Source of the DNA: Qipengyuania sp. ABI-127-1 | GTDB lineage: Bacteria; Pseudomonadota; Alphaproteobacteria; Sphingomonadales; Sphingomonadaceae | Assembly: GCA_022953095.1 (NCBI GenBank) | Contig: JALJCR010000002.1 | Location: 248,001-312,000 of the forward strand | Direction of reading: 5' to 3' | Length of the DNA: 64,000 bases | Part shown: positions 25,909-27,250 of the stretch, piece after piece | How positions within the stretch are numbered: the stretch's first letter is position 1 | Layout of the letters: each line of letters starts with the position of its first letter | The notes under the pieces: generated by a model | The model's input: the letters and a program-made list of their open reading frames with translations, nothing else | Databases searched by the model: none | What the model was told of the DNA's origin: nothing | Translations under genes and position numbers: made by a program

Positions 25909-26074
25909 GAGTCCTCAGCGCCACACCGCACCATCTTGAGTCCGAAAATTCCGCAGGGACTCAACATCTTGTGCCGGACACCTTCTGTTCTCCCTCAGCA
26001 ACCCGAAATTAACCATCACGTGCGAGGTTTTTCGTGCTTGACCGGGAATCCATTTGGACTCACCCTGTGGATAA
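25909..26074 (+). promoter_or_regulatory. ccrM control region: GANTC cluster, CtrA half-site, DnaA box
   Basis: Five GANTC sites, the recognition sequence of CcrM itself, lie at 25909 (GAGTC), 25938 (GAGTC), 25958 (GACTC), 26046 (GAATC) and 26057 (GACTC). TTAACCAT, a CtrA-type half-site, is at 26009-26016. TGTGGATAA at 26066-26074 is the exact complement of the consensus DnaA box TTATCCACA and ends 21 bases before the ccrM start. Confidence 0.65.
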
Positions 26075-26095
26075 CTAAGGACAGGGACGGACATC

Positions 26096-27250
26096 ATGGG
26101 GGTCATCGAGACCACGAAGAGTCGCGCAAAAGCGACTGTAAAACTTGCGGAAACTCCGAAGGAGCTCCTCCCGCTGGGGCAGATCATCCCGGGCGACTGC
26201 GTGGAAGCCATGCGGTCCATCCCGACCGCGTCGGTCGACCTCGTCTTCGCCGATCCGCCCTACAACCTCCAGCTCGGCGGCGACCTCAACCGGCCCGACG
26301 GCAGCCATGTCGATGCGGTGACCGACGACTGGGACAAGTTCGATACCTTCAAGGCCTACGACGATTTTACCCGCGCCTGGTTGATCGAGGCCAAGCGTAT
26401 CCTCAAGCCCGATGGCGGGCTGTGGGTGATCGGCAGCTATCACAATATCTACCGTGTCGGCGCGATCCTGCAGGACCTGGGCTTCTGGATCCTCAACGAC
26501 ATCGTCTGGCGCAAGTCCAATCCCATGCCCAATTTCCGCGGCACGCGCTTCACCAACGCGCATGAAACGTTGCTGTGGTGCAGCCAGGGCGAGAAGGCGA
26601 AGTACCACTTCAACTACCGCGCGATGAAGACCCTCAATGACGAGCTCCAGATGCGCAGCGACTGGGTCCTGCCGATCTGCAACGGGGCGGAGCGGCTGAA
26701 GGAGGGCGGCCACAAGGTCCACCCGACGCAGAAGCCCGAAAGCCTGCTCTACCGCGTGCTGCTCTCCACCACCGAGCGCGGCGACGTGGTGCTCGACCCC
26801 TTCTTCGGCACCGGCACCACCGGCGCGGTGGCCAAGCGCCTGGGCCGTGAATGGATCGGCTGCGAGCGTGAGGGCGTCTATCGCGATGCCGCCTTGAAGC
26901 GGATCGCAAAGGAACTCCCGCTCGACGAAAGCGCGCTGACCACCATGCAGGCCGGCCGCAGCGCACCCAAGGTAGCCTTCGGCGCGCTGGTCGAGAGTGG
27001 GTATTTGAAGCCCGGAACCGAGGTGTTCGACAAGAAACGCCGCTGGGTGGCGACGGTACGGGCGGACGGCTCACTGGCAGTTGTCGATGGCAGGGGGGGC
27101 AAGCAAACCGGCAGCATCCACGGCCTCGGCAAGGACCTGCAGGGCGCGCCCAGCTGCAATGGCTGGACCTTCTGGCACTACGAAGTGGATGGAGACGTGA
27201 AGCCCATCGACGCCGCGCGGCAGTTGTATCTTCTGGCGGTCGAGGATTGA
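26096..27250 (+). CDS. ccrM: Cell-cycle-regulated adenine DNA methyltransferase (GANTC), CcrM
   Basis: A 384-residue beta-class N6-adenine methyltransferase. The catalytic motif IV DPPY ([10 protein letters not shown]) is near residue 52 and precedes the SAM-binding motif FGTGTTG near 236, the beta order. The region from about 275 to the end is the RAMA domain used by CcrM in DNA recognition (ending [17 protein letters not shown]). CcrM methylates hemimethylated GANTC late in the cell cycle in alphaproteobacteria. The upstream region carries five such sites plus CtrA- and DnaA-type motifs, suggesting feedback control. It stands alone as an essential-type core gene. Confidence 0.96.

Follow-up and report, generated by a model that had tools for sequence, protein, structure and literature searches.

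A conserved consensus DnaA box and a GANTC cluster at the predicted ccrM start of Qipengyuania fit a promoter wired to replication

In Qipengyuania sp. ABI-127-1, a marine-type alphaproteobacterium, and in most close relatives, an exact consensus DnaA box lies over the predicted transcription start of ccrM, in a leader crowded with GANTC sites. As to its sites, this is a real, selected regulatory arrangement, whose function we infer from sequence; conserved DnaA box and GANTC at a single promoter fit a promoter that would be wired to replication. The window, that is, the whole 64,000-nucleotide stretch analysed, contains the following features at the locus (coordinates within the window).

24969..25898, plus strand: calcium/sodium antiporter, upstream gene (TIGR00367 above cut-off)
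25909..25962, no strand assigned: upstream GANTC block, opening a longer conserved stretch, GAGTC..ACACC..GAGTC..GACTCAAYATCTTGTG (28-row clade; also in a 31-row alignment)
26009..26016, plus strand: TTAACCAT, which we take to be a CtrA half-site (0.66 conserved in 28 rows)
26038..26043, plus strand: putative −35 element, TTGACC (CTTGAC 0.99 conserved)
26046..26050, no strand assigned: GANTC in the spacer between −35 and −10 (0.68 conserved)
26057..26061, no strand assigned: GANTC at the 5′ edge of the putative −10 (0.99 conserved)
26061..26066, plus strand: putative −10 element, CACCCT, placed by a chosen 17-base spacer and a poor match to TATAAT
26066..26074, minus strand: exact consensus DnaA box TTATCCACA (plus-strand TGTGGATAA), spanning −7 to +2 relative to a predicted start near 26073
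26077..26086, plus strand: purine-rich AAGGACAGGG, likely the ribosome binding site
26096..27250, plus strand: ccrM, adenine methyltransferase with N6_N4_Mtase and RAMA domains (domain matches)
26119..26123, no strand assigned: sixth GANTC, codon 8 of ccrM (present in locus L006; absent from L005, L007 and L008)

The gap from the antiporter stop (25898) to the ccrM ATG (26096) measures 197 bases (25899-26095), and the box ends 21 bases ahead of that ATG. The encoded protein matches PF01555 (N6_N4_Mtase) and, C-terminally, PF18755 (RAMA), both over their cut-offs. Its best match, NF050803, extends over nearly the full length at 585.5 bits, below the curated cut-off of 830 bits, which was likely set for the Caulobacter side because the short name of the model ends in ‘Caul’. 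The nearest CcrM sequences come from Qipengyuania and Erythrobacter. GANTC methylation has been reported in a Sphingomonas strain, as an excerpt of that study states (PMC8067484); we assign the methyltransferase of the window to CcrM on its sequence matches, with GANTC methylation by its product being putative in this genome. Within the genus, one 91% complete genome (G154) carries two different ccrM genes (L268 and L275) with an exact box upstream of each; the second is either an extra copy or contamination.

The initial annotation placed five GANTC sites in the leader (25909, 25938, 25958, 26046 and 26057), TTAACCAT at 26009, the DnaA box at 26066 and a gap of 197 bases. All of these positions are correct, and the sixth GANTC, at 26119, had been omitted. 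GANTC is generally scarce in the window, with 87 sites where dinucleotide shuffles predict 314. Sampling 400 kb of the window's genome gave 627 sites (1.57 per kb), and the density in 164 roughly called gaps, drawn from sample and window, is 1.97 per kb; in that rough set the ccrM leader was cut to 128 bases with 2 GANTC. The full leader, at 25 GANTC per kb, exceeds the roughly called gaps about 13-fold, so its density is not equal to that of other intergenic regions. Spans of 193 bases with at least five GANTC were found in two places only, the ccrM leader and a gap beside hemE, across 20 stretches of 20 kb and the window. For comparison with relatives, we used an even draw of 149 family genomes with a ccrM match in each, along with 80 named ccrM loci, and 86 leaders from 151 non-family genomes with any match, the remaining 65 being mostly weaker matches. 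Counted over the 200 bases nearest the start codon, family leaders have a median of 5 GANTC, and 132 of 149 have four or more. The 86 alphaproteobacterial leaders outside the family have a median of 3, so that richness in GANTC is a widespread trait of ccrM leaders.

The window falls in a 28-row clade, mostly Erythrobacteraceae, in which 26 of the 28 leaders carry the exact box. Per-column conservation in this clade is 0.99 for each of CTTGAC, the GANTC at 26057 and the box; the four bases separating that GANTC from the box stand at 0.92, and the upstream GANTC sites (25909, 25938 and 25958) at 0.93–0.96. The flanks fall to 0.56 right after the box and 0.50 right before CTTGAC, the whole leader standing at 0.68; the weakest named elements are the GANTC at 26046 (0.68) and TTAACCAT (0.66). 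These differences rank the named elements unequally, with the box, the −35 and the GANTC at 26057 as the core and the upstream GANTC sites next. The proposal of a locus that reads replication through all three motif types is thus partly supported as to its sites: the DnaA box and most GANTC positions are kept in close relatives, whereas the CtrA half-site and the GANTC at 26046 are clearly less conserved. The composite GACTCA-N0-8-TGTGGATAA gave 44 matches in 43 of the 149 genomes, 42 of them at ccrM, and 0 control matches. In place of the exact box, L007, one of the nearest relatives, has AGTGGATAA, and L027 has TGTGGACAA. Eight of nine genomes of the genus have the exact box at ccrM, and for the ninth (G156) loci were retrieved for four of its eight boxes; the genus count covers 44 boxes in the nine genomes, with loci for 30. 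In G152 (genus) and G100 (family), the sole exact box of the genome is the one at ccrM.

The upstream half of the leader (25909-25999) has a pattern of its own: conserved GAGTC, ACACC and AT.t.GAGTC, about 15 variable bases, GACTCAAYATCTTGTG and CTC.TTtcGTTC. The GACTCA-NNN-T of this block resembles the −10 edge of the downstream promoter, so the block might be another promoter, or else a symmetric site for a protein. Leaving that block aside, an RNA element in the leader was considered and rejected: the sole Rfam match lies on the other strand at 21.2 bits (gathering score 45), and for 12 leaders folded with RNAalifold the covariation term was −0.33, both partners having changed in 2 of 21 pairs. 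Palindromic DNA sites explain the paired arms GAGTCC/GGACTC equally well.

No consensus sigma-70 promoter was found in the leader, and the promoter was read from conservation instead. TTGAC is followed by GANTC after 14 or 15 bases in 118 of the 149 family leaders, and over the 117 fixed-spacing leaders the putative −10 has A at position 2 in 109 and T at position 6 in 81. The predicted transcription start falls at about 26073. The missing consensus is as expected, because the promoter would need an activator. GcrA is a candidate for this role, since the genome has a gcrA gene (a call that rests on two neighbouring PF07750 pieces over the cut-off) and since Caulobacter starts that have a GANTC in the −35/−10 spacer make up a separate time class, according to the accessible part of PMC4287350. 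The box overlaps the last base of the putative −10. It looks like an addition to the promoter and not a part of it, because many leaders without the box keep the −35, the spacer and the second GANTC.

In E. coli, the consensus DnaA box is the one that DnaA binds most strongly. The window's genome encodes DnaA (TIGR00362 over cut-off) with GGRDHSTV in its C-terminal end, presumably the box-binding motif, and contains 4 copies of the exact box in 3.15 Mb, the reversed control word occurring 10 times. The exact box is present in 60 of the 149 family ccrM leaders, against 0.09 expected from genome-wide box frequencies, and in 61 when a start-independent window is used, which gains G081 and G103 and loses G007. 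Leader start codons were set by rule and some are wrong, hiding or displacing the box in G081, G103 and probably G148. In the main arrangement, comprising 52 family leaders, the box lies on the same strand at −70 to −20. Boxes with one mismatch are rare, at 10 in the 149 leaders, and of the 86 leaders from outside the family 5 contain the exact box. DnaA input at ccrM is therefore not general, the exact box being absent from 87–89 of the 149 family leaders, depending on counting, and from 81 of the 86 other alphaproteobacterial leaders. Across the 149 family genomes, 1085 exact box words were counted against 1557 reversed control words, as if the word were avoided outside chosen places. We also considered the leader as a replication origin-like element and rejected it: the last 330 bases before ccrM contain a single exact box, no one-mismatch box and no AT-rich stretch.

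Boxes also occur at ccrM outside the main arrangement, in 8 of the remaining 97 family leaders against 0.07 expected; these lie −190 to −23 from the rule-chosen start codon, on both strands, and one of the eight (G148) is probably a main arrangement with a wrongly chosen start. Among the named loci, two Croceicoccus and two Novosphingobium carry a reversed box just past the promoter, and nine Sphingomonas have a box near −150, within the upstream GANTC block. Two genomes, G139 and G027, have the box farther upstream than the −35, at 91 and 105 bases ahead of the start codon, and in G100 and G006 the distance from GANTC to box is eight bases longer, so that the box would leave the predicted start. 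A tree of 81 CcrM proteins requires at least 14 changes of box state, a rough figure because the tree is a quick one and 29 of its 78 inner branches are weak. Since the exact box turns up at other places or in reverse in other lineages, it appears to have been gained or moved repeatedly, and the same 9-mer at differing places and strands argues for selection for DnaA binding and is unlike a promoter motif. In an alphaproteobacterium of another family (G235, locus L399), TTGAC, GANTC and the exact box precede ccrM in the same order and on the same strand.

These counts and relocations bear on two readings in which DnaA has no part. One is that the box arose by chance or descends with an unselected leader. 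Most main-arrangement rows (26 of 29) do fall in one 28-row clade, as shared descent would have it; however, 60 boxes were found where 0.09 were expected, the bases right after the box are free to change (0.56), and other lineages place the box at other positions and strands. Counts, flank variability and relocations refute this reading at the sequence level, and we regard it as extremely improbable. The other takes TGTGGATAA for a promoter or early-transcript element unrelated to DnaA, given its place at the predicted start and its fixed distance from the −10 in most main-arrangement leaders. That many leaders without TGTGGATAA keep the −35, the spacer and the second GANTC weighs against it, as do the occurrence of the exact 9-mer in both orientations and far upstream, and a GANTC distance that varies by insertions; we give this reading little credence. 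The box is very probably a selected DnaA-binding site.

With somewhat less assurance, we favour a mechanism in which DnaA occludes a GcrA-type, methylation-sensed ccrM promoter, for which we infer the start site, binding, methylation effect, repression and timing. Three cell-cycle inputs would converge on one start site. A good −35 (TTGAC) with a very poor −10 (CACCCT) would leave a sigma-70 promoter in need of help, which GcrA, acting at methylated GANTC, would probably provide through the spacer GANTC sites; CtrA may add activation from the upstream TTAACCAT where that site is kept. DnaA on the box (−7 to +2) would hold the promoter shut while active DnaA is abundant. Active DnaA falls after initiation in other bacteria. 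Such a drop, together with a fork that leaves the GANTC array hemimethylated, would open the promoter, and new CcrM would then remethylate the array and alter its own expression.

DnaA is described as a regulator, often an activator, of Caulobacter genes. It might accordingly bind the box and activate ccrM, which would then be switched on by rising DnaA and not by its fall. Excerpts of two studies report gcrA, ftsZ and podJ as targets of DnaA regulation in Caulobacter and gcrA as activated by it (PMC4287350 and PMC2877005, respectively), the window's genome has an exact box 91 bases before the ftsZ start codon, and the ccrM boxes of G139 and G027 stand upstream of the −35, where occlusion is not expected. 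In the main arrangement of 52 leaders, however, the box lies over or near the predicted start, and here it shares the final base of the −10, which is where a repressor would sit. Activation is thus a possibility that we consider unlikely, and if DnaA binds the box, it probably represses ccrM.

A further reading concerns the chromosome more than the gene. The gap beside hemE (L321 19374-19724; hemE, TIGR01464 over cut-off) contains a GANTC cluster and an AT-rich stretch, and no exact DnaA box was found in it. As the Caulobacter origin is drawn adjoining hemE in the accessible part of PMC8959179, this gap is probably the origin of the window's genome. In 12 single-contig family genomes, the 560 bases upstream of hemE reach a maximum of 2–6 GANTC per 193 bases (at least five in 7 of 12), and an exact box is missing from all 12 of these stretches on the putative origin side. 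These genomes have ccrM at 0.47–0.79 of the half-chromosome away from hemE (median 0.61, with rounded genome sizes). If hemE marks the origin, the ccrM leader would thus be in the hemimethylated state from mid-replication on. As an excerpt of PMC8116508 states, genes of this circuit show no clear chromosomal pattern in Sphingomonadales.

This position would suit a box that serves mainly as a DnaA sink or timer on a mid-replichore locus, binding DnaA when replicated and having little effect on ccrM. The genome-wide scarcity of exact boxes (1085 in 149 genomes, reversed control 1557) and their absence from all 12 stretches upstream of hemE would suit it as well. Yet a sink could sit anywhere, whereas 42 composites tie the box to the promoter and other lineages put theirs inside the same ccrM leader. 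We consider a sink improbable, and continue to favour occlusion by DnaA at the promoter.

The four exact boxes of the window's genome are those in the ccrM leader and ahead of ftsZ and two elsewhere. The ftsZ box (L003 1501-1601; C3:213103 of the window's genome) has GATTC 31 bases after its first base, and at least five of the nine genus genomes have a box ahead of ftsZ. Family-wide, the strict pattern TGTGGATAA-N10-36-GCGATTCG gave 13 matches in 13 of the 149 genomes, eight at ftsZ, one at ccrM in reverse and four at neither. The ftsZ box is thus kept in the genus and not, by this pattern, across the family, and the composite was rejected as a second general rule. Three genus genomes have pairs of exact boxes 315 bases apart (G155 C2:335598/335913, G154 C234:3928/4243 and G151 C1:1443960/1444275). 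A wider and distinctly speculative idea is that ccrM (and ftsZ), not the origin, hold the best-matching DnaA sites of the Erythrobacteraceae chromosome, and that DnaA occupancy and hemimethylated GANTC might jointly gate the methyltransferase that resets the array, as a sensor of replication state.

The motifs have precedents in part. Caulobacter ccrM is activated by CtrA, from hemimethylated DNA (excerpt of PMC2217572), and is most probably affected by its own methylation state (excerpt of PMC3973325). The Qipengyuania leader resembles that promoter, known to us by description, in having GANTC and a CtrA motif upstream of ccrM, and differs in its exact DnaA box over the predicted start, its five GANTC sites and a CtrA half-site that is missing in many relatives. 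It shares with GcrA/CcrM-type promoters a spacer GANTC, a poor −10 and a gcrA gene in the genome, and departs from them in having two GANTC sites 11 bases apart (spacer and −10 edge) and a DnaA box, with methylation and GcrA binding being putative. DnaA, CtrA and a methylated GANTC also meet on one cell-cycle promoter at Caulobacter ftsZ, as described in part of PMC3708114; there the gene is another and, by that description, the GANTC that matters sits in a CGACTC motif. Of 77 Caulobacter promoters with a DnaA motif, 25, 19 and 19 share it with CtrA, GANTC and GcrA sites, respectively, according to excerpts of PMC4287350, so that combining these motifs is in itself nothing new.

DnaA control of ccrM was itself proposed by Brilli et al. 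(2010) from a motif scan in some alphaproteobacteria, mainly where CtrA sites are missing, with the caveats of low matrix specificity and little taxonomic conservation (PMC2877005). The box, which had been called the least expected part of the leader, is therefore not wholly unexpected. Regulator and target are the same in that prediction; here, in contrast, the site is exact and positionally conserved, and boxes and CtrA motifs co-occur. TTAACCAT has two copies in the 400-kb sample, both strands counted. A CtrA-like motif is found in 52 of the 149 family leaders, that is, in 32 of 60 with the box and 20 of 89 without it (Fisher p 0.0002, kinship ignored). The anti-correlation of DnaA and CtrA sites proposed in PMC2877005 was not seen here, the association being positive with kinship ignored. 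Our literature search, which left most subscription papers outside its reach, found no study of a DnaA box in a ccrM promoter, and in the retrieved passages that pair ccrM with a DnaA box, the dnaA promoter and the origin are concerned. What appears to be new is the exact, conserved DnaA site at the predicted ccrM start and its relocations.

What is known of how CcrM is restricted to a brief phase of the cell cycle comes mainly from Caulobacter, for which an excerpt of PMC2217572 names CtrA as the activator, and in the Sphingomonadales group the DivJ-PleC-DivK system is described as degenerate or lost (excerpt of PMC2877005). A conserved exact box over the ccrM start would link the replication initiator directly to DNA methylation, and the question of DnaA at ccrM is reduced to one 9-base site, for which moved, turned and missing boxes provide natural comparisons. 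The cell may thus time DNA methylation directly by its replication initiator. If the speculative idea of a replication-state sensor is true, DnaA and methylation would form a timer that does what Dam, SeqA and DnaA jointly do in E. coli, but with no SeqA.
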